From positions 1 to 41,753 of the IMG/VR virus record IMGVR_UViG_3300014911_000013: 41,753 nt of DNA. One strand, 5' to 3'. Below the pieces are notes generated by a model. That model saw only the letters and a program-made list of their open reading frames with translations. It was not told the DNA's origin and made no database searches. How positions within the stretch are numbered: the stretch's first letter is position 1; each line of letters opens with the position of its first letter. The translations under genes were made by a program, and so were the position numbers. Shown here piece by piece: positions 5,775 to 40,580 of the stretch. This stretch comes from a virus.

Positions 5775-7314
5775 TTCTCAACCTCCTCATCAGTTCATTC
5801 ACTTGCACTTCACGCTTTTGGCTGATAATGTCGAAGATGTGCTCCTCAATGCTGTCTCTCGTCAATATCACCACAGTTTCCACTTCCTCGGCCCTCTGCC
5901 CGATCCGATATATCCTGTCTTCCGCGTGGATATTCCCAGCCGGATGCCAGGCGAGGTCGAGAAAAATCGCCCGCCGAGCCGCGACCAGGTTGAGCCCCTC
6001 GCCACCGACGCCGTGCGTCGCTACCAGCGCCTGCGCGTCCTCCTCAAGCGCCGCAAGCGCACGCTCGCGCTCGCGTGGAGACACGCTCCCCGTGAGCAGC
6101 ACCGCGCGGATGCCCTCGGCGTTGAGCCGCTCGACGGCGCGCTTCGCGAGTTGCTCGAACATCGTGAAGACAACCGCCTTGCCGTCGCCCTCGCGGATGA
6201 CCTCGACCAGCGCGTCTAGCTTGCTGCCGCCCTTATAGTCAGGAAAGACCAGGGACGGATCCAGCGCCAGCTGCCGCAGGCGCGTGACCTCGCTAAGCGC
6301 GCCGTCCGACCACACTTCCTCGTTACCGAAGCGCACCCGGCCGGTCTCGAGCATCTCATCGTACAGCGCCGCCTGCCCAGCAGGCATCTGGTAGCTCACG
6401 ACCCGCCGCGTACGCGTCGGGAGCCCATCGAGCCTGTCCTTCTCCCGCCTTAGGACATACACCGAGAGGATACGCTCCAACGCCTCGCGCTCGCCGTCCT
6501 TGACCCCGCCGACCTTGATTCCGTAGCGCGTCTCGTGCACGTCGAAGAAGCGCCACGCGAACAACCAGTACGACGAAAAGCGCGCCGGATCGACAAGGTG
6601 GAGAAGGCTCCAAATATCCGACGCGACGTTGACCGTCGGGGACGCTGTCAGGAGGAATACCCAGTCCGCCTCCGCGCACATCCGCTTCAGCACGTCGAAT
6701 GTCTGCGTCTTCCGGTTCCGCGCATTGTGCGCCTCGTCCACGATGATGAGGTCAGCGTGCAGATCGTTCAGCAGAATCTGTGCGAAGTTGCAGATGAGGA
6801 ACTCATCAGTCCACGACCCCAGGATCTCCTGCCGCTCGTCCGCATTTCCCGTCAGCGCCAGCGGCGACCTGGTCGTCCAGCGACGGACGTGCTCCGCCCA
6901 GTCTGGGATCTTGGAGTCGTTACAAACGATAACCGCCCTGCGCGGCTTAGCAGCGTCTGCTGCAACTAGAGACATCACCGTTTTCCCAAGTCCTTGGCTA
7001 TCCGCCAGGATACCACGCCGCGCGGCCAGGAGCCAGCGCACCGCGACCCGCTGGTGCGGAAGAAGATCGTCGCGACCAGGGGCGTCGTCCTGCCCCGCGA
7101 GCGATAGGAGCTCCTCCTGACGCTCCCGTATCTCGCGGAACCGCACGCGCAGCGCAGGAGAGATTTGGACTCGACCGCGATTGTGCATGAGAATGCGGCG
7201 GGCGACGTCGCCGCATATAGGAAACGATCGAGGAGGTCTGCCGAAGGGGCAGATTTCTGGCGGGACGTCGCCCTTGAACATCATTCTATCACGATAGAGA
7301 TATAGCGTCCTCAT
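5692..7314 (-). CDS. SNF2-family DNA helicase/translocase
   Basis: This 540-residue protein starts at ATG 7314 in a four-base ATGA overlap with the previous stop. Motifs in order: LPHQRVAVRWLL (Q/I region, ~85-96), Walker A SQGLGKT (K111), DEAH at 193-196, LTASP (III), then in the second RecA lobe VVFTMFEQ, ATHGVGGEGLNLV (V), and the SNF2 hallmark DRIYRIGQ (VI). Stand-alone SNF2 helicases are common in phage replication modules, where they are taken to unwind or translocate on DNA. The last 83 bp overlap the nuclease gene, whose conserved N-terminus requires that overlap to be real. The small upstream gene is coupled to it. Confidence 0.92.
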   Translation of the reverse strand: MRTLYLYRDRMMFKGDVPPEICPFGRPPRSFPICGDVARRILMHNRGRVQISPALRVRFREIRERQEELLSLAGQDDAPGRDDLLPHQRVAVRWLLAARRGILADSQGLGKTVMSLVAADAAKPRRAVIVCNDSKIPDWAEHVRRWTTRSPLALTGNADERQEILGSWTDEFLICNFAQILLNDLHADLIIVDEAHNARNRKTQTFDVLKRMCAEADWVFLLTASPTVNVASDIWSLLHLVDPARFSSYWLFAWRFFDVHETRYGIKVGGVKDGEREALERILSVYVLRREKDRLDGLPTRTRRVVSYQMPAGQAALYDEMLETGRVRFGNEEVWSDGALSEVTRLRQLALDPSLVFPDYKGGSKLDALVEVIREGDGKAVVFTMFEQLAKRAVERLNAEGIRAVLLTGSVSPRERERALAALEEDAQALVATHGVGGEGLNLVAARRAIFLDLAWHPAGNIHAEDRIYRIGQRAEEVETVVILTRDSIEEHIFDIISQKREVQVNELMRRLRSGKATASDAESEPAERDVVSAGMAPWV

Positions 7315-8052: not shown

Positions 8053-8056
8053 GCCC

Positions 8057-8152
8057 GAAATTCCCCCTTTATTTTTGAAGAGAGTGAATCTTATAAAGTT
8101 ATATATCGAACGCGCCTCAAAATTAAGGAGCGGATTGCTTGGCATTGTTTCC
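8057..8152 (-). promoter_or_regulatory. Conserved promoter/leader element, copy 1 (replication block)
   Basis: This is one of three near-identical AT-rich elements in a GC-rich genome. On the minus strand it reads GGCGCGTTCGATATATAA, then CTTTATAAGATTCA, then a pyrimidine/A stretch, then AAATAAAGGGGG. TATAAG is a fair -10 hexamer, but no -35 is conserved at the expected distance. The G-rich end can act as the ribosome binding site of the RuvC-like gene that follows directly. It is interpreted as a promoter with leader for the replication block; a phage-specific factor or activator may be needed. Confidence 0.6.
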
Positions 8153-8165
8153 CCTCAGCCCGCCG

Positions 8166-8260
8166 GAAATTCCCCTTTATTTTTGAAGAAAGTGAATCTT
8201 ATAAAGTTATATATCGAACGCGCCTCTAATTTAAGGAGCGGATTGCTTGGCATTGTTTCC
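8166..8260 (-). promoter_or_regulatory. Conserved promoter/leader element, copy 2 (tandem)
   Basis: This is a tandem duplicate of copy 1, offset by 109 bp. It is almost identical over about 95 bases, including the flank AATGCCAAGCAATCCGCTCC (minus strand) that copy 3 lacks. It differs at the AATTTTG/AAATTAG stretch, one C/T change, and one fewer G in the G-run. It lies between the late-block hairpin and copy 1, in the same orientation. It probably gives a double promoter for the replication block. Confidence 0.55.
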
Positions 8261-10757: not shown

Positions 10758-13700
10758 TTAGCTGGCTGCTGCTAATCCGTGATGCTTTAGACATTCATTG
10801 ATTTGGCTGAGAAGTCGCCTTTCCTCATCACCATAAGTAGTATCAGGCTCTATGTCAAAGGCGCTATTTACATAGCGGCCATATACTACTCTGACACCAT
10901 TTACAAAATAAGCCCCTGAGCAATTGACATTACCGCTTACATCCAGCTGATGCTCGGGATCGAAATTACCGATACCAACCTTGCCGTTGAGAGTCATATA
11001 GATAGCGGTCTTGTCTATATCAGCTCCGGTTGCTACTATAATCCTACCCACATACGGTGCGCCGTGCGGAGCCTCTAGCCGGATGCTCCCTATTCCGTCT
11101 CTCTTTGCTCGTATCCTTGTCACAGCGTTTTTCCATACATCCAAATCCACGGCTGGAGAATATGTCCCAACACCGACATGTCCATCAGGATCGATGAATA
11201 AGGCGTCACTGCTTCCGTCATTTGTCAGCATGCGGATGTCATCTGCTTCTAAGGTCAGACGCCCATAGTTCAATCCCTTTTTGACCTTGATTGTCAGATA
11301 TCCCTCGCCTCCGGCGGGCCCACTGCTCTGAGCTATGTAGGCGACGGCATCGTCAAGAATATCCGAACCCCACTTGATCGCTCGGACATCATTGAACCCC
11401 CAGCCTGCTTGTAGCTTAATGCCCTTGGAATTCAGTTCGACTGCGCCTCCTCCTGCCATAGCCTTGCCAGTGGTGGCTTCGATGTAGAACTCTTTGGTGG
11501 TGGCGTCGCTGTAACCAGCAAGTTCACTGCTGCTTATTTCGATACGCGCTCCTCCAGGAATACCGACTGTAAGCTGACCATCGCAGGGATAGAATTCAAC
11601 ATCGTCAAAATACACAGTGGCCGCGTTGTCAGAGTCAATGTTCAAGGCAACTCTCGCGTAGCGTACTCCGTTGGGAGCAGTCGTTACTACCTCTTTTTTC
11701 TCCCAAGAGGTGCTGGCTGGAGAGACAATAGTCAGACTACCAATGACGGAACCAACGCGGTCATACCACTTTACACGGGCCCCCGCACCGCCCGTTCCAG
11801 TGCTATTCCTCACCCAAGCTGCTAAGTAGTAATTGCGACCCTCTTCTACGTAGATTGGTAAGGTATCTACTACTTCATAGCCGTTGACACCATCACCAGT
11901 AGCCTTTAGGCTATATCCGCCAGAGTGAGCTACTGTGTCATCAACCGTGGGAGTAAGTTCACGAATTCTCCACTCTGTTGTATCTCCTGTTTCGAATCCC
12001 GAGTTGGCTACAGCATTATGGCCACGCACGTTGATCTTGTTAGCAGTGATCGAGTGGGCATATATCTTGCCACCATCTATAAGGGTATAATCCTCGCTGT
12101 GTCGCCAATCGTCCGGTGACGTTGAACCTGAGATCAAGATGCGACCAGGTTCGATTAGAGTGGACGCTAAGTTGATCTTGTCTACAACCGTGTCAGCATC
12201 GACATTGCTCATGTCGGTTTTGGCTGCATCACCGCCGGTGACATATATCTGGCCCTGGACGATAAGAGCTGAACCGTTCCATTCGATCCGGTTGTCCCCG
12301 CTAGCATTGCCGAACCAGAAAGTTCCATCGGATGCGATATTGACCCGTTGAGTTGTGGCATCATATGCTTTGAGGCCATCATTGTCGATCTCGACTCGTG
12401 CACCGCCAGGAGAACCTACTAGTATTCGTCCATCTGCTAAATAGAACTCAGCGTCGTCGAAGTAGACGTTTGCGGTGTTCCCCGCCCGAATAGTCAGAAC
12501 AAACCATGCAGTTGTTGCTCCTGTGGGAGCTGTAACAACTGCTTCTTTTTTTGTCCAGGATGTTGAAGCACCGCTATAAGCTTGAGAGTAACTAATTACG
12601 GAGCCATCCTTGTCTCGCCATGTGATATAGCAACCCGCACTACCAGTTCCGGTGCTGTTGCGCACCCAAACACCGAAGTAGTACTTGCGTCCTTCTTCTA
12701 CTGCGAAACCTGTCTGTCTCGCTGGTATCACCTCAGAACCAGAGCTTCCCGTCGCTACTATCGAGTATTTACCGTTGTGAGGATTATACGTAGCGATACT
12801 ACCGGCTAGAGGATCCCAGGACGAGAGATCGCCGGTTTCGAATCCAGGATTTCCGAGCCAGTTTGCTCCATGAGCCAATAGAGCACTGGCTGTCACGGTG
12901 TTCGCATAGATATCTCCACCGTCAATCTTCGTAGTGTCGGTGGGATAAGCCCAGCCCGCCATGTCGTCCGCTGGCACGTCGTCGCTTCCGATGTAGACCA
13001 CGCCGTTGGCGTCAACTCTGAACCGTGGGTCGCTGGAGTTTGGCCCTAGCCAGAACAGAATGTCGCTACCTGACGCTGTTGGTAGCACCTCGCCTCGCAC
13101 GTTATCAGATGCGTCCACCCACTGCTGTTTGAGCCCGTGTATAATGGCGTTCTGGTCACTCAACAAGACATAATGGTCACTGTCCTTACCTGCCCAAAGA
13201 CCGTACTGCGCGCCGAGACCAGCCAGACCGTCTAGCTGCCCCAGACGCACGTGCGCCGTGTGGTTGGCGCCCGTGAATGGATCTGCTCCCTCCCAACTAA
13301 CCACGTCCAGGTACGGCGCGTAGTTGAGGTCAGCAGTGGCGAGCAAATAGCCCTGCCCGCTCTGGCCGTAGTCCGCCACCGCTACGCCCGCTTGGATCGT
13401 CACGCCTACGGAGCCGCTCTTGTGCGTGTACGTGTACCGCTGAGTGCCATCGCCCATGTCCGTCGGGTTGGTGACAACGCCCCACACGTCATACACGCCG
13501 TTGACGTACTCGCTCTTGATACGCACCCAATCGTTAGCGCTAAACAGGAAGCCGCCACCAGGTGGGTCGGTGATGTAGATGTAGGTGGTTCCATCGACCG
13601 CCGGCGTGGTGAAGTCCGCCGCCAGCTTGCCGCTGCTCTTGAAGATGCCCAACGTGCCTGCGTGCGCTTCTATCAGGTCTTTGACGAATACCGTGCAGTG

Positions 13701-15320
13701 CAGTTCGCCACGGATCCATGCGTTAGCGAATTCAACGTCGCCGTCGTGTGCAATCTGCCAGCCCTTGATCCCACTTTGGAAGTTAGCCGATTCGAGATCC
13801 CCCGCCTCGTTCACCTGGATCAGCGCGGTGCCGCCCTCGTCCTGCACCTCCCAGAGATTGGCAGTCTGGCTTCCGCTATTGCGCCGAACTGTGATGCCCT
13901 TGCGATCGTCGGCGCCAGTCCTCACGCCCAGGGCACCGTAGGTGCTTAGATCAGTACCAGCGTTGATACCGACCTTGTCGGCCGATGCGTCTACGAACAG
14001 CGTGTCCGTATCTACTGCAAGATCGTCATCCACCACGAGCGCGCCAGGCGTCCTCAGGATATTCGCTGCACTTCGATACAGCTGGGCATCTCCGCCGAGG
14101 AGGATGCCAGCGGCACTCCCCTGCGCAGGAAGTCTGAGCTGGCGGTTCGCGGTCAGCTCGAGGGCCGTGGCCCAGCTGCTGCCGTCATATGCCTCGATTG
14201 CGAAAGTCCGACCGGCGGCCGCGGCATTCGTGTAGTAGACAATGTTGACATTCCCACCATCGGTGGCGTGGTCGCCGCCGTAAAGCTCGATGTAGCCGCC
14301 GACCTGGTTGAAGCCGCCGAAGATCGAGATCGCCGACGCCGCGTCGCCGGACATGATTGTATCGACGGTCAAGTCCTGGTCTACTACGAGTGAATCCGGC
14401 GTCCTCAAGACGTTCGATGCGTCTCGATAGAGCTGAGTGTCTCCGCCGATGAACAGGCCATTGCTCGAACCCTGACCAGATATGCTGATAGTGCTGGTGG
14501 CTACCAGGTCTGGCAGGTTCAACGTCCCCGTCATTGTGTCGCCGGATTTTCTGACGAACAGATGCGAGAACGCCGCCGCGGCCACACGGAGTGCTACCCT
14601 GCTGTTGTAATCGCCCTCGCAGTAGAGTGTGACGGTAACATCGTTCCCAGAACCAGACACGTTCGCAAACAGCTTCAAGATCAGCCGATCGGACGTGTCG
14701 AGGTCAATGTCATTGGACACCGATGCGCTAAGAACCAGCTGGCTCAACGAGGATGAAAGTTCGTTGCTCTCCTCGCTGGTCATCAGTAAGGTCTCTGAGC
14801 CGAGCGCGTTGCGCTTATAAAGCTGCCAGTACAGCCTCGCGGTCTTGTTGCCTGATGCGAGCGCGAAGAACGTAGCGGTGTAGACGCCCAGGGACAAGAA
14901 CTCCAGTGACGGCTGCTCGCTCTCGGTGGCGAACGACCAGAGAAGTTGACCATCGCCGACCCCCAGCGGGCTGGAGACGAGGGTAGAAGCACTCTCGCCC
15001 GTCTCCTCGGGGAAGAGTGTGTAGTAGCCGCCGATATCGGAGCCGTTGTCTGATAAGAAGAAAGCCCAAGTAGATGCCGCGACCCCAATGTCAACATAGT
15101 TCTTCGTCGCGGCGTCCTGGTCTGCCTCGGGATCTTCCAAGTCTGTGATCTTGTGATCGCCCATTGAGAGATCGTCGGTCATCGGATCATTGCTGGCATC
15201 GAGCTTCAGATACGTACCGCTGAGATCCGGAATGTCCGATGTGGTGATGGTAGATATTATCTCAGTAGAGCTCTCCGTGATGGGCAGGTCGATCTCGCGT
15301 GGAGTTCTGCTCTTAGGCAT
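10758..15320 (-). CDS. Long tail fibre / receptor-binding protein with two carbohydrate-binding-like modules
   Basis: This 1520-residue protein starts at ATG 15320, overlapping the previous stop. The N-terminal part has fibre hallmarks: ATKNYVD, KSGDTMTGTLNLPD, and paired repeats GGDTQLYRDASNVLRTP and GGDAQLYRSAANILRTP. A middle segment has GWQIAHDGDVEFANAWIRG. Two similar ~145-residue modules follow at about 820-965 and 1105-1250, each beginning N-P/S-GFETGD, containing VEEGR-YY and VRNSTGTG, and ending VYFDD; these look like CBM4/9-type jelly rolls. The C-terminal ~130 residues (VGVGTYSPAVDLDV, VGIGNFDPEHQLDVSG) resemble fibre ends. Residues ~790-1520 are encoded by clearly less GC-rich DNA. 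Role: host-surface recognition. Confidence 0.85.
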   Translation of the reverse strand: MPKSRTPREIDLPITESSTEIISTITTSDIPDLSGTYLKLDASNDPMTDDLSMGDHKITDLEDPEADQDAATKNYVDIGVAASTWAFFLSDNGSDIGGYYTLFPEETGESASTLVSSPLGVGDGQLLWSFATESEQPSLEFLSLGVYTATFFALASGNKTARLYWQLYKRNALGSETLLMTSEESNELSSSLSQLVLSASVSNDIDLDTSDRLILKLFANVSGSGNDVTVTLYCEGDYNSRVALRVAAAAFSHLFVRKSGDTMTGTLNLPDLVATSTISISGQGSSNGLFIGGDTQLYRDASNVLRTPDSLVVDQDLTVDTIMSGDAASAISIFGGFNQVGGYIELYGGDHATDGGNVNIVYYTNAAAAGRTFAIEAYDGSSWATALELTANRQLRLPAQGSAAGILLGGDAQLYRSAANILRTPGALVVDDDLAVDTDTLFVDASADKVGINAGTDLSTYGALGVRTGADDRKGITVRRNSGSQTANLWEVQDEGGTALIQVNEAGDLESANFQSGIKGWQIAHDGDVEFANAWIRGELHCTVFVKDLIEAHAGTLGIFKSSGKLAADFTTPAVDGTTYIYITDPPGGGFLFSANDWVRIKSEYVNGVYDVWGVVTNPTDMGDGTQRYTYTHKSGSVGVTIQAGVAVADYGQSGQGYLLATADLNYAPYLDVVSWEGADPFTGANHTAHVRLGQLDGLAGLGAQYGLWAGKDSDHYVLLSDQNAIIHGLKQQWVDASDNVRGEVLPTASGSDILFWLGPNSSDPRFRVDANGVVYIGSDDVPADDMAGWAYPTDTTKIDGGDIYANTVTASALLAHGANWLGNPGFETGDLSSWDPLAGSIATYNPHNGKYSIVATGSSGSEVIPARQTGFAVEEGRKYYFGVWVRNSTGTGSAGCYITWRDKDGSVISYSQAYSGASTSWTKKEAVVTAPTGATTAWFVLTIRAGNTANVYFDDAEFYLADGRILVGSPGGARVEIDNDGLKAYDATTQRVNIASDGTFWFGNASGDNRIEWNGSALIVQGQIYVTGGDAAKTDMSNVDADTVVDKINLASTLIEPGRILISGSTSPDDWRHSEDYTLIDGGKIYAHSITANKINVRGHNAVANSGFETGDTTEWRIRELTPTVDDTVAHSGGYSLKATGDGVNGYEVVDTLPIYVEEGRNYYLAAWVRNSTGTGGAGARVKWYDRVGSVIGSLTIVSPASTSWEKKEVVTTAPNGVRYARVALNIDSDNAATVYFDDVEFYPCDGQLTVGIPGGARIEISSSELAGYSDATTKEFYIEATTGKAMAGGGAVELNSKGIKLQAGWGFNDVRAIKWGSDILDDAVAYIAQSSGPAGGEGYLTIKVKKGLNYGRLTLEADDIRMLTNDGSSDALFIDPDGHVGVGTYSPAVDLDVWKNAVTRIRAKRDGIGSIRLEAPHGAPYVGRIIVATGADIDKTAIYMTLNGKVGIGNFDPEHQLDVSGNVNCSGAYFVNGVRVVYGRYVNSAFDIEPDTTYGDEERRLLSQINECLKHHGLAAAS

Positions 15321-36033: not shown

Positions 36034-37487
36034 ACCTCCAACTCCGGATTCAAACCATCATCTGCGAATCTCTCCAGGGCGACGGCGACGTAGCGAGGCT
36101 CGCGTTCTGTGGCTATGCATCTCCGCCGCAATCGCTCGCACGCCAGAAGCGTCGTCCCCGACCCGAGGAACGGCTCCCACACCAGGTCGCCCTGCTCGCT
36201 ATAGACCTCGATCGCGCGCAGCGGCAGCTCCAGCGGGAACGCTGCGACGTGATATCGCAACGGCGAGCCTTCGGCGTCGTGCGTACTCCAGACTGCGTGG
36301 ACGGACATGCGCCACTTCCGGCGTGGCAGGCGGCGCTCCTTGCCGCCCTTCGACCTGAACGTCCATACGAAATCATATCCCTCGATGGGCACTCCTGAAA
36401 ATACCCTCCACAAATTCTCCAGCCACTGCTGGGCTACAATATCGTCCTCCAGCAACTCCGTGGATCGTTGCGGCACCCGCCTGATAACCAGCTCCTCCGG
36501 CTCGTCGTCCTCGCCCCCGGGCGCGCGGAACGACCACACGTACTCCCACTCCTGATGGTGTGGGATCGTTGAGTGGTACGACCAGAACGGTGCCGGAAGG
36601 CGCTCGAAGGGCTTCCGCCAGATCCGATTCGCCCAAAGCTTCCAACCGTGACGACGGAAGCGCTCGTTGTAGATGCACGACATCAGGAAGACGCCGTAAC
36701 TCGCGTCCCCCGTAATGCGCTCGACGATGCTCTTGACGTAGATGTCGCCGAAGTTGACGACGAAGTAGCCGCCAGGAATCACAACACGCGCGCCGACCTC
36801 AGCAGTCTTGTCGATCAGCTCCACCAGGTCGCCGAACGCCTCCCCCTCCTCGTACTCCTTACCCACGCCGTAGGGCGGCGACGTCACCGCCATGCGCGCC
36901 CGCTCACCAGCGAAAAGCGCCTCCACCGCCTCGATGTCCGTGCAGTCGCCCACAAGCAGCTTGTGCTCCCCGACCCGCCAGACCTGACCAGGCTCGACCC
37001 CCCACTTCTCGCGCAGCTCCTCCGCCTCGTCCACGCGCGGCTCAGCGGTCTCGTCGGAGTCCGAATCGAACTCCCTACCTATCCCTTCCGCAAGGCTGTC
37101 GAGCAAGTCGCGCACCGCGTCGTTGCCCGTCTGCACGTCGCTCAGAAGATCCGCCAGCGCCTCGGGATCCGTCTCCGCCGCCGCAGCCAGCGGATCCAGC
37201 GTCGCGAGCGTAAGCTTCTCCTCGTCCTCATCGAGGTCAACGTACAGGACAGGTATGGTCGGCTCTTTGCGTGACAGGGCCAGCGCCACGCGCAGGTGGC
37301 CGTCCAGGATGAAGCCGGTGCGCTTGTTCACGATGACCTGCTGCACCCAGCCAACCTCGTCAAGAACGCCCTCCAACGCTCCCCGCTGCGCATCAGGGTG
37401 CGCGCGCCAGTTCCGCGGATTCGCGACGAGATCGCCAGGTGGCACGTCCGCACTACCAACTATCCGATTCCTCCAACGTCGCTTCAC
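36030..37487 (-). CDS. ParB-like domain fused to a DNA methyltransferase (N4/N6 amino group)
   Basis: This 485-residue protein starts at ATG 37487. Residues ~15-110 are ParB/sulfiredoxin-like (NPRNWRAH, FILDGHLRVA). After an acidic linker, residues ~160-485 form an amino-methyltransferase: catalytic motif IV TSPPYG at 202-207, FVVNFGDIY, then motif I at the C-terminal side, EPFLGSGTTLLAC (~438-450), so the permuted beta-class order. TSPPY is common in N4-cytosine and some N6-adenine enzymes. No cognate restriction gene is seen. Role: probably modifies phage DNA against host restriction; ParB-like part may bind DNA or nucleotide. It begins the packaging genes. Confidence 0.88.
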   Translation of the reverse strand: MKRRWRNRIVGSADVPPGDLVANPRNWRAHPDAQRGALEGVLDEVGWVQQVIVNKRTGFILDGHLRVALALSRKEPTIPVLYVDLDEDEEKLTLATLDPLAAAAETDPEALADLLSDVQTGNDAVRDLLDSLAEGIGREFDSDSDETAEPRVDEAEELREKWGVEPGQVWRVGEHKLLVGDCTDIEAVEALFAGERARMAVTSPPYGVGKEYEEGEAFGDLVELIDKTAEVGARVVIPGGYFVVNFGDIYVKSIVERITGDASYGVFLMSCIYNERFRRHGWKLWANRIWRKPFERLPAPFWSYHSTIPHHQEWEYVWSFRAPGGEDDEPEELVIRRVPQRSTELLEDDIVAQQWLENLWRVFSGVPIEGYDFVWTFRSKGGKERRLPRRKWRMSVHAVWSTHDAEGSPLRYHVAAFPLELPLRAIEVYSEQGDLVWEPFLGSGTTLLACERLRRRCIATEREPRYVAVALERFADDGLNPELEV

Positions 37488-38081: not shown

Positions 38082-38138
38082 GCCCACAAATCTACCACAT
38101 CTCCCGCCAGCGATATAACAGCATTTCCTCGCCCGCGC

Positions 38139-38209
38139 GAAATTTCCCCTTTATTTTTGAAGAGAATGAATCTTATAAAGTTATATATCGAACGCGCCCT
38201 TAGTTTAAG
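38139..38209 (-). promoter_or_regulatory. Conserved promoter/leader element, copy 3 (late block)
   Basis: The same AT-rich element as at 8.06 and 8.17 kb, 30 kb away, in the same orientation: GGCGCGTTCGATATATAA, CTTTATAAGATTCA, AAATAAAGGGG and AAATTTC. Only two or three positions differ in the ~60-base core, while its upstream flank is different. It is placed just before the first gene of the late block, supporting a promoter rather than a coding role. Confidence 0.6.
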
Positions 38210-38240
38210 AAGGCATTTTGAGCGGATGATCAGATACGCC

Positions 38241-38353: not shown

Positions 38354-38680
38354 CTAGCAGGCGAGGAAGAACTTGCTTATCTCCTTCGCGAGCGTCGCCT
38401 TCTCCTCGCTGCCCAGTGCCAGTTCTTCGAGGAGCTCGACCGCCGCTTGCAGCGCCTCGTTGTAGCGCGTCTCCGCCGCGCGCAGCTCGTCGCGGAGCCC
38501 CCTGGTGAATGCCGCGTACTCTTTCCGCGTCATCCCGAGCTCCTCTCGCATCTCGTCCGCCGTCTCCCAGTCCAGTTCGTCGTACGGAACTGGGAAGTCC
38601 TCCGCGCGCTCCTGCGCGCGTAGCTTGGCGCCTGTCGCTTTTTCCAGCTCTTCGACGATCCTCTTGGCCTTGGCTTTCAT
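38354..38680 (-). CDS. Small helical hypothetical protein
   Basis: This 108-residue protein starts at ATG 38680 with GAGGAGG five bases upstream; a longer frame to 38713 lacks a site. It begins MKAKAKRIVEELEKATGAKL, has a YDELDWETADEMREELGM middle and a long charged coiled-coil-like C-terminal half ending ISKFFLAC. No catalytic motif. Early gene of unknown function. Confidence 0.7.
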   Translation of the reverse strand: MKAKAKRIVEELEKATGAKLRAQERAEDFPVPYDELDWETADEMREELGMTRKEYAAFTRGLRDELRAAETRYNEALQAAVELLEELALGSEEKATLAKEISKFFLAC

Positions 38681-38731
38681 CGTTGCCTCCTCGTTCGTTA
38701 TCACCACCATCATATCACATGGTGTAAATAC

Positions 38732-39079
38732 CTAGACGACCGCGAGCGCGCGAGCGCCGAGGATCCGTCCGTTCTCGTCCCGGATCAGCGCCGCCGGAAT
38801 CACGACCAGGTAGCCAGCGTCCTCCGGCGTCGGCCCGAGCGCCTGCGCCAGGAGCGCCGAGACCACGTAGACGTGGCCCGGCCTGAACTCTGGCAGGCCC
38901 TGCGGCTTGCCGAAACGCTTCCGGATCACCGGCACGTCCACGCCCTCCGCGCAGACCGTGCCGACGACCTCTGTCTCCTCCTCCAGCCGCGGCGGGCTGT
39001 CGCAGCGGTCGATCGTGATCGACAGCCCGTTGCCGTTGCAGATGGTCACCGGGTGTGGAGTTAGATTAACAATCTTCAT
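38732..39079 (-). CDS. Conserved small protein of the NLTPHPV type
   Basis: This 115-residue protein starts at ATG 39079 with GGAG nine bases upstream. It opens MKIVNLTPHPVTICNGNG and has VPVIRKRFGKPQGLPEFRPG, VYVVSALLAQAL and a late DAGYLVVIPAALIRDENGRI; I recognise this from phage and plasmid hypothetical proteins. Alternative in-frame starts at 39148/39151 would add a 23-residue leader made of the last repeat unit. The ATG region here (GTTGGAGTGATGAAGATT) is the twelfth, diverged unit of the upstream 69-bp array. The function is unknown. Confidence 0.75.
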   Translation of the reverse strand: MKIVNLTPHPVTICNGNGLSITIDRCDSPPRLEEETEVVGTVCAEGVDVPVIRKRFGKPQGLPEFRPGHVYVVSALLAQALGPTPEDAGYLVVIPAALIRDENGRILGARALAVV

Positions 39080-39147
39080 CACTCCAACTCCATCCGGTCG
39101 TGGCGCGTCGGCTGGCACCAAGTCTGGATTTGAACTAATTAATTTCA

Positions 39148-39849
39148 TCATTTCAACTCCATCGAGCCGCGGCGCTCGGCGGCGCCCCTGGTCGGCGTCG
39201 GGCATGGAGTTGAACTAATTAATTTCATCAACTCAACTCTAGACTCCGTGTCGACCTCGGCTGACGCGAAGTCTCGACTTAGACTGATTAATTTCATCAA
39301 CTCAACTCCATCGCGCGCTGCGCCTCCGGCCGACCCGAAGTCTCGACTTAGACTAATTAATTTCATCAATTCAACTCTAGACTTCGCGGCGTCCCCGGTC
39401 GACGCGAAGTCTCGACTTAGACTAATTAATTTCATCAACTCAACTCTAGACTTCGCGTCGCCCTCGGTCGACCCGAAGTCTCGACTTAGACTAATTAATT
39501 TCATCAACTCAACTCCATCGCGCGCGGCGTCCTCGGCCAACGCCAGATCTAGACTTAGACTAATTAATTTCATCAACTCAACTCTAGACTTCGTGCCGAC
39601 CTCGGCCAGCGCCAGATCTAGACTTAGACTAATTAATTTCATCAACTCAACTCTAGACTTCGTGCCGACCTCGGCCGACCCGAAGTCTCGACTTAGACTA
39701 ATTAATTTCATCAACTCAACTCGAGACTTCTGGTCGGCCTCGGCCGACCAGAAGTCTCGACTTAGACTAATTAATTTCATCAACTCAACTCTAGACTTCG
39801 TGCCGACCTCGGCCAACGCGAAGTCTCGACTTAGACTAATTAATTTCAT
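39148..39849 (-). CDS. Possible repeat protein of 23-residue units, read through the array
   Basis: Because 69 is a multiple of three, the array is one open frame of 233 codons on the minus strand. Its units resemble MKLISLSRDFxSAExxxKSRVEL, starting at ATG 39849, whose A is the last base of the upstream TGA stop. It ends with TGA 39148-39150, which overlaps the ATG of the next unit. Synonymous preference is not visible and the opposite strand is open too, so this may be a by-product of the DNA repeat rather than a protein. If translated, it is a repetitive amphipathic polypeptide. Confidence 0.35.
   Translation of the reverse strand: MKLISLSRDFALAEVGTKSRVELMKLISLSRDFWSAEADQKSRVELMKLISLSRDFGSAEVGTKSRVELMKLISLSLDLALAEVGTKSRVELMKLISLSLDLALAEDAARDGVELMKLISLSRDFGSTEGDAKSRVELMKLISLSRDFASTGDAAKSRVELMKLISLSRDFGSAGGAARDGVELMKLISLSRDFASAEVDTESRVELMKLISSTPCPTPTRGAAERRGSMELK
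39721..39760. repeat. Perfect 40-bp palindrome within the array
   Basis: Arms of 19 bases are exact inverted complements around a central TC. It is one of the spacers of the 69-bp array; other spacers carry only the outer 8 bases of the stem (AGACTTCG/CGAAGTCT) or none. It could form a cruciform or RNA hairpin, or bind a dimeric protein. Confidence 0.85.
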
Positions 39850-40580
39850 CAACTCAACTCCGGATCCAGGTGCTCTGCGGTGTACCCCGCGGGTACCGCG
39901 ACCCGCATGCTGACGTGCCCGCCGTGGTACCCCCTGCTGTGCACCACGGACAAGACCTTAACGGCGTCCGTGTCGCCGTCAATCTCCAAGAGATCTAACT
40001 GCCACTCCTTGTACCGCCCCCCTGGTGAGATATAGGCCGCCACGCGGCCATCGTGATCCCGGACAACCACCGGCATCTCCCAGAAGCCCGCGCCGATTTG
40101 ACGGTTCGTCGGCCCGCCGAAGTTGACGGCGACGATTTCCACGTCCGCGTTCTCCTCGGTCTCCTCAATCGCCATCAGCTCCTCTTCGACCCTGTCCAAC
40201 CTCTTGGCGTCGCCGGGCCAATGCGCGCGGACGTACTCCTGCGCCGCCGGGATCGTGACGCGGAGGGCCTCGGCGACGTCGATCCATCGATCGATCGGCC
40301 GTGGGAAGCCGACCGCTTTCCGGAGACCTTCGACGAAGCGGCCGGTCTCCCAGCCCTCGTACCCTGCGATCGCCCGCACGCCCGGGGCCAGCTTCATGCG
40401 ATAATGGTTCGCCGACCACTTGCCGTTTTTCGTGTACCCGTGGCCGACGACCACGGCCACGCCGGGGATCGTCTCCCCGCAGAAGTGGTGCACGCGGTCG
40501 TCCTTGATCAGGACGAGCCACCGCTCACGCCGCCGGTTCCCGATCCCGTCCGACCACTCTAATCCTCTTTCTTCCGCCAT
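39849..40580 (-). CDS. Unrecognised early protein
   Basis: This 243-residue protein starts at ATG 40580 after AGGAGG. N-terminal RRERWLVLIKDDRVHHFCGE, then IPGVAVVVGHGYTKNGKWS, a middle helix-rich region LRVTIPAAQEYVRAHWPG with an acidic Glu-rich stretch, and a C-terminal beta-rich part HVSMRVAVPAG. The gene's last codons already belong to the first unit of the 69-bp array, and its TGA overlaps the first unit's ATG. I do not recognise a family. Confidence 0.65.
   Translation of the reverse strand: MAEERGLEWSDGIGNRRRERWLVLIKDDRVHHFCGETIPGVAVVVGHGYTKNGKWSANHYRMKLAPGVRAIAGYEGWETGRFVEGLRKAVGFPRPIDRWIDVAEALRVTIPAAQEYVRAHWPGDAKRLDRVEEELMAIEETEENADVEIVAVNFGGPTNRQIGAGFWEMPVVVRDHDGRVAAYISPGGRYKEWQLDLLEIDGDTDAVKVLSVVHSRGYHGGHVSMRVAVPAGYTAEHLDPELS

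Follow-up and report, generated by a model that had tools for sequence, protein, structure and literature searches.

Anti-CRISPR genes have to be produced early and then held down, most of their known controls consisting of one or two operator sites. The Aca repressors are established regulators of acr genes that act through inverted repeats (PMC9410906). Repeats can also be tied to translation starts: in Cluster K mycobacteriophages, the 13-bp SAS/ESAS sequence GGGATAGGAGCCC is found before several genes and a role in translation initiation has been proposed (PMC3203893). A further family relevant to anti-CRISPR activity is that of the Crn4 ring nucleases, which break down the cyclic oligoadenylates of type III CRISPR systems and whose phage copies have been proposed to act as anti-CRISPRs (PMC12830947).

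The window corresponds in full to contig C2 (41,753 bp) of a metagenome-assembled genome (MAG) that measures 1.08 Mb and is 60% complete. The contig is a tailed-virus genome, with genes for terminase, SPP1-type portal, Mu F-like head protein, HK97-type capsid and tape measure, together with genes for a prim-pol, an SNF2 helicase and a DNA methyltransferase, the identified genes lying on the minus strand. A tandem array precedes a gene, hereafter crn4, whose product belongs, judging from its sequence and predicted fold, to the Crn4 family of ring nucleases, and the last unit of the array covers the start codon of this gene. To our knowledge, control by a tandem array of a gene's own start operator is an architecture known nowhere else. 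If the array indeed has this role, a dozen start-site copies before a Crn4 gene would represent a different way of setting an anti-CRISPR switch. The array also offers a concrete place to seek regulation of Crn4, whose family was described only in December 2025.

Anatomy of the array and its surroundings

The features of the region are the following:

38354..38713, minus strand: 119-aa gene directly after crn4, of no family; candidate regulator by position only
38732..39079, minus strand: crn4, 115 aa, Crn4-family ring nuclease by sequence and predicted fold
39058-39860, minus strand: repeat array, between the 243-aa gene and crn4
39058..39090, minus strand: site 12, the crn4 translation start; 24/33 identical to the core; predicted sense RNA hairpin
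39091..39159, minus strand: degenerate unit 11; core 39127-39159, 28/33 to the consensus, dyad 12/16
39160..39239, minus strand: degenerate unit 10, 80 bp; core 39207-39239, 30/33 to the consensus, dyad 12/16
39240..39860, minus strand: nine well-conserved 69-bp units, each a 33-bp core GAGTTGAGTTGATGAAATTAATTAGTCTAAGTC and a 36-bp spacer; ATGs at 39849, 39780, 39711, 39642, 39573, 39504, 39435, 39366 and 39297
39148..39849, minus strand: frame that runs open from the ATG of the first core across the array, its TGA overlapping the ATG at 39148; no sign of amino-acid selection
39849..40580, minus strand: 243-aa gene of no known family, its stop (TGATG) inside the first core

Twelve ATG-centered sites are present, at the nine positions given for the well-conserved units and at 39228, 39148 and 39079. 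The preliminary description had the number of sites right and also correctly placed the last one where the gene at 39079-38732 begins, but its nine intervals of 69 bp have to be corrected: ten of the 11 intervals measure 69 bp and one, from 39228 to 39148, measures 80 bp. The sequence GAGTTGAGTTGATGAAA is exact in nine units and altered in those at 39366, 39148 and 39079. Tandem Repeats Finder reports a period of 69, with 9.4 copies, 86% match and a score of 905. A degenerate 23-nt form of the core occurs 11 times with 0 mismatches, for a chance expectation of 0.00, and allowing up to 3 mismatches gave no further occurrence of the core in the contig. As described earlier, the arrangement GGAG-8-ATG is present where the preceding spacer ends in GATG, and TGATG overlaps occur at both ends of the array (39851-39847 and 39150-39146). 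The array is known from a single, possibly short-read, contig, and its unit number is that of the assembly.

No homologues of the 243-aa and 119-aa genes were found, and family searches of the neighbors recognized no helix-turn-helix or RNA-binding gene beside crn4. A scan confined to bacterial signals returned neither sigma-70 promoters nor intrinsic terminators in the array region, and the array holds no tRNA. Known RNA families were rejected as well, the only Rfam matches being sub-threshold microRNA hairpins that we read as hairpin artefacts. Elsewhere in the contig, an element of about 65-90 bp is present in three copies on the minus strand (8053-8116, 8153-8238 and 38127-38212) that are 89-95% identical and each contain CGATATATAACTTTATAAGATTC; it has the look of a TATA-type promoter module common to these sites. 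A 1520-aa protein of unknown function is encoded at 10758-15320, in the stretch of lowest GC of the contig (down to 51%).

A conserved, dyad-symmetric and non-coding core

Conservation is unevenly distributed within the units. Over the nine well-conserved units, 2 of the 33 core columns are variable versus 23 of the 36 spacer columns (Fisher P 3e-7), and none of 20000 column permutations matched the conservation of the core. Mean pairwise differences are 0.44 in the core versus 9.6 (of 36 positions) in the spacer, a divergence about 20-fold lower in the core. Core conservation extends to synonymous positions, and the variable columns are spread over codon positions 1, 2 and 3 of the MKLISLS frame as 8/9/8, counts that hold for every frame, the period being divisible by three. 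Since variation shows no excess at third positions, the array does not evolve in the manner of a protein, and we rejected a repeat protein on this basis. Among the spacers, a few types of left half and of right half can be distinguished.

About its own center, the core is imperfectly palindromic, forming 9 to 12 of 16 Watson-Crick pairs across its variants; 9 pairs are reached by 1.2% of the 33-mers of the contig and 12 pairs by 0.007%. The conserved block thus has a dyad at its center. The sole two core substitutions in the nine units change a G-U pair of the sense strand into A-U or G-C, which, with two events, is no more than suggestive. An inverted repeat is also contained in the spacer, where it is perfect in the unit at 39780; covariation between the arms of this hairpin is not significant (P 0.08 to 0.17). 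Units are moreover mutually inverted, with dyad centers every 34.5 bp and a complementarity of 45-76% at these centers versus a background of 24%. On either strand, the RNA of the array folds far below its shuffles (z -19.5 sense, -12.6 antisense), which is what the inverted repeats lead one to expect. G-U pairs favor the sense RNA, yet a G/T-rich sense strand predicts a G-U excess anyway, and the excess may simply reflect this composition.

The crn4 gene, its relatives and the host

The crn4 product, which the preliminary description called NLTPHPV-type and left without a family, has no match in Pfam or NCBIfam. A phmmer search against the PDB retrieved Crn4b (9r7b, E 1.6e-7), Crn4a (9sma, 2.4e-6) and Crn4 H15A (3.1e-5). 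The AlphaFold model has a pLDDT of 94.9 and, when submitted to Foldseek, its top seven PDB matches are all Crn4 (E 1e-8 to 1e-7, TM 0.70-0.74), the next match having an E of 0.8. Residues T7, H9 and R100 are invariant across ten sequences (alignment A3), and alignment with Crn4b places H9 and R100 opposite its catalytic H17 and R103 (residues from PMC12830947). By sequence and predicted fold, the product is a Crn4-family ring nuclease, which makes crn4 a candidate type III anti-CRISPR gene.

According to the preliminary description, the units duplicate the region where translation of the downstream gene starts, and this proves to be the case: aligned on the ATG, the crn4 start is identical to the core at 24 of 33 positions, while the best of the 937 other ATGs of the contig reaches 18. 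As the alignment shows MKIVNLTPH to be the conserved start of the Crn4 family, the natural direction is from gene start to array, and we infer that the array derives from the crn4 start rather than the reverse. The two units closest to crn4 are the most degenerate of the array, and the ATG at 39148 (unit 11) is in frame with the crn4 start at 39079. Taken as mRNA, the crn4 start region has a folding energy of -15.5 kcal/mol versus -6.1 +/- 2.3 for its shuffles, 2 of 1000 of which are as low, and the predicted hairpin pairs both GGAG and AUG. This fold is the strongest of 15 Crn4 start regions, the 14 homologues ranging from 0 to -9.4, and ranks third among 35 gene starts of the contig (2 of the 34 others are as low).

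The preliminary description had proposed to take absence from all relatives, with unit numbers drifting neutrally, as the mark of a passive satellite; the array is absent from every relative examined, in searches of finite collections. None of 18 other Crn4 loci (17 loci and one further) has it, nor was it found in terminase-related phages, in 60 host relatives or, by DNA comparison, in phage records and plasmids. The core, allowing 3 mismatches, returned nothing repeated from 398 genomes of the phylum and one isolated match (in G416), and its exact degenerate form is absent from viral contigs and 84,980 species genomes. An ancient function is weakened by this absence. Among the 17 Crn4 loci, a single one, L121, has a start region that matched upstream sequence above all its shuffles (22/33), and no tandem array was found before its Crn4 gene.

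Three observations concern individual relatives. Locus L147, from a genome of the same order (G110), encodes a Crn4 homologue of 35% identity, with no array before the gene. In a phage whose terminase is 65% identical (L015), an unrelated GGC-rich array at 6086-6370 fills the gap before an ATG at 6371; its map position is similar to that of the window's array, which may be a coincidence. Positions 36845-36888, part of the DNA methyltransferase gene, have DNA matches of 82-86% in four genomes of the MAG's order.

Regarding the host, the rpoB of the MAG (locus L101) is one that, from our own reading of its sequence, we take to be archaeal-looking. Its locus has a GC content of 47% versus 61.6% for the contig, a difference that may stem from misbinning of the contig or, alternatively, from a tailed virus having an archaeal host. 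Of 31 genomes from the MAG's family, 9 encode Cas10-like proteins, each scoring under the curated cut-off, which makes a type III CRISPR system plausible in the putative host. Matches to the contig in 211 genomes of the order, sought as CRISPR spacers, were gene-like or isolated, and the seven checked had no repeat-spacer context.

Accounts of the array and described systems

A core that is strictly conserved, dyad-centered and non-coding, and whose twelfth copy lies over the crn4 start, favors control of crn4 through a site of binding or folding. Our preferred, if tentative, account is that the array is a non-coding, dyad-symmetric operator at the crn4 start that has been amplified upstream and regulates crn4. 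An operator built around the crn4 start codon would have been amplified eleven times upstream, each core serving either as a DNA site for a dimeric regulator or as an mRNA stem-loop holding the ribosome site and AUG. Occupation of site 12, the start of crn4 itself, would block its expression, while the copies lying upstream would either concentrate the regulator locally or sequester it, and would fix the threshold at which the anti-CRISPR is switched on or off. An array of protein-binding sites, already envisaged in the preliminary description, is favored. The resemblance of the crn4 start to the core, its predicted hairpin and the precedent of the Aca repressors also speak for this account. 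Against it count the lack of a recognized helix-turn-helix or RNA-binding gene beside crn4, the absence of the array from the other Crn4 loci and related phages examined, the non-significant pairing in the spacer hairpins, the possibly compositional G-U excess and the lack of bacterial promoters and terminators in the scan. We infer the core to be a site for a regulator, crn4 to be the target and the copies to act as a sponge or threshold; the more specific proposition, that tandem copies of crn4's own translation-start operator form a DNA or RNA sponge timing anti-CRISPR production, is rather unlikely.

A rather unlikely, though appreciable, alternative is a passive minisatellite, in which the crn4 start would have been duplicated by slippage and then expanded, spacers varying through template switching in palindromic DNA and cores staying alike through recombination or mutational quiet. 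The restriction of the array to this genome among all those sampled would fit such an origin, as would the degeneracy of the units nearest crn4, expected in an array growing from one end, and the small number of half-spacer types. Pure passivity is nevertheless argued against by the strong conservation of the core, the roughly 20-fold contrast arising within the same units and the conserved block being dyad-centered. Even if passive, the array would still show a strongly patterned core arising by duplication of a gene start.

An origin of replication or a partition site is unlikely. AT-rich, iteron-like 33-bp cores would here bind an initiator or partition protein, with GC-rich hairpins as spacers. 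The AT-richness of the core in a contig of 61.6% GC and the tandem dyad-symmetric sites are compatible with this account and, were the genome circularly permuted, the array would fall beyond the prim-pol gene (814-2271). However, the iteron-type origin raised in the preliminary description gained no positive evidence: GC skew is negative along the whole contig with no switch, a pattern confounded by the main genes all lying on one strand, no replication initiator family is present in the neighboring genes, and one of the copies supplies the start codon to a gene not involved in replication. Usual iterons are also shorter than these cores.

Even less probable is a translation relay or leader ORF, whereby ribosomes restarting at TGATG after the 243-aa gene would translate the array and reach crn4 through the second TGATG, array length setting crn4 output. 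The overlaps at both ends, a frame open over nine 69-bp units and the in-frame ATG at 39148 are in its favor, whereas third positions lack excess variation, a single 23-codon unit would be open with about one chance in three, and the 80-bp interval breaks the frame. Hopping of ribosomes from unit to unit, as had been suggested, is not borne out, since the frame from the first ATG continues through the whole array and makes hopping unneeded; most units, moreover, lack the GGAG used by the genes of this phage.

Finally, a CRISPR-repeat mimic (Racr) or CRISPR-like array, with cores imitating host repeats to trap Cas proteins, is very improbable in spite of its 33 + 36 bp geometry and its position beside a candidate anti-CRISPR gene, where Racrs are often found (PMC10651486): the spacers are homologous to one another rather than unique, which also led us to reject a CRISPR array proper, the core has neither a CRISPR family match in Rfam nor, for an uncertain host, a repeated counterpart in the genome searches above, and it resembles the crn4 start instead, leaving repeat mimicry with no support.

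Described systems share parts of this organization. The Crn4 ring nucleases (PMC12830947) have the same fold and T, H and R residues as the crn4 product, with about 31% identity, and no array is described or was found at their loci. Racrs and phage CRISPR arrays (PMC10651486) share a repeat-spacer geometry near an anti-CRISPR gene, whereas the spacers here are homologous and the searches above gave the core no similarity to CRISPR repeats. Iteron origins likewise consist of tandem AT-rich sites at fixed spacing, but the array has no adjacent initiator and the contig no skew switch. At Aca-controlled acr operators (PMC9410906), inverted repeats upstream of the anti-CRISPR gene are the sites of a dimeric regulator. 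There, each promoter has one or two sites, compared to twelve here with the last over the start codon, and no aca gene or promoter was recognized near the array, the 119-aa gene being without homologues. Aca2 reportedly binds RNA too, at an acr ribosome site. The SAS/ESAS repeats (PMC3203893) are also tied to translation starts in a tailed phage, some with imperfect inverted repeats. They are however dispersed 13-bp single copies before many genes rather than a 69-bp tandem array before one gene, and are unrelated in sequence to a core that reaches into the coding sequence. The Cluster K SAS and the Aca-controlled acr promoters are the closest in kind, and neither consists of tandem copies of a single gene's start.
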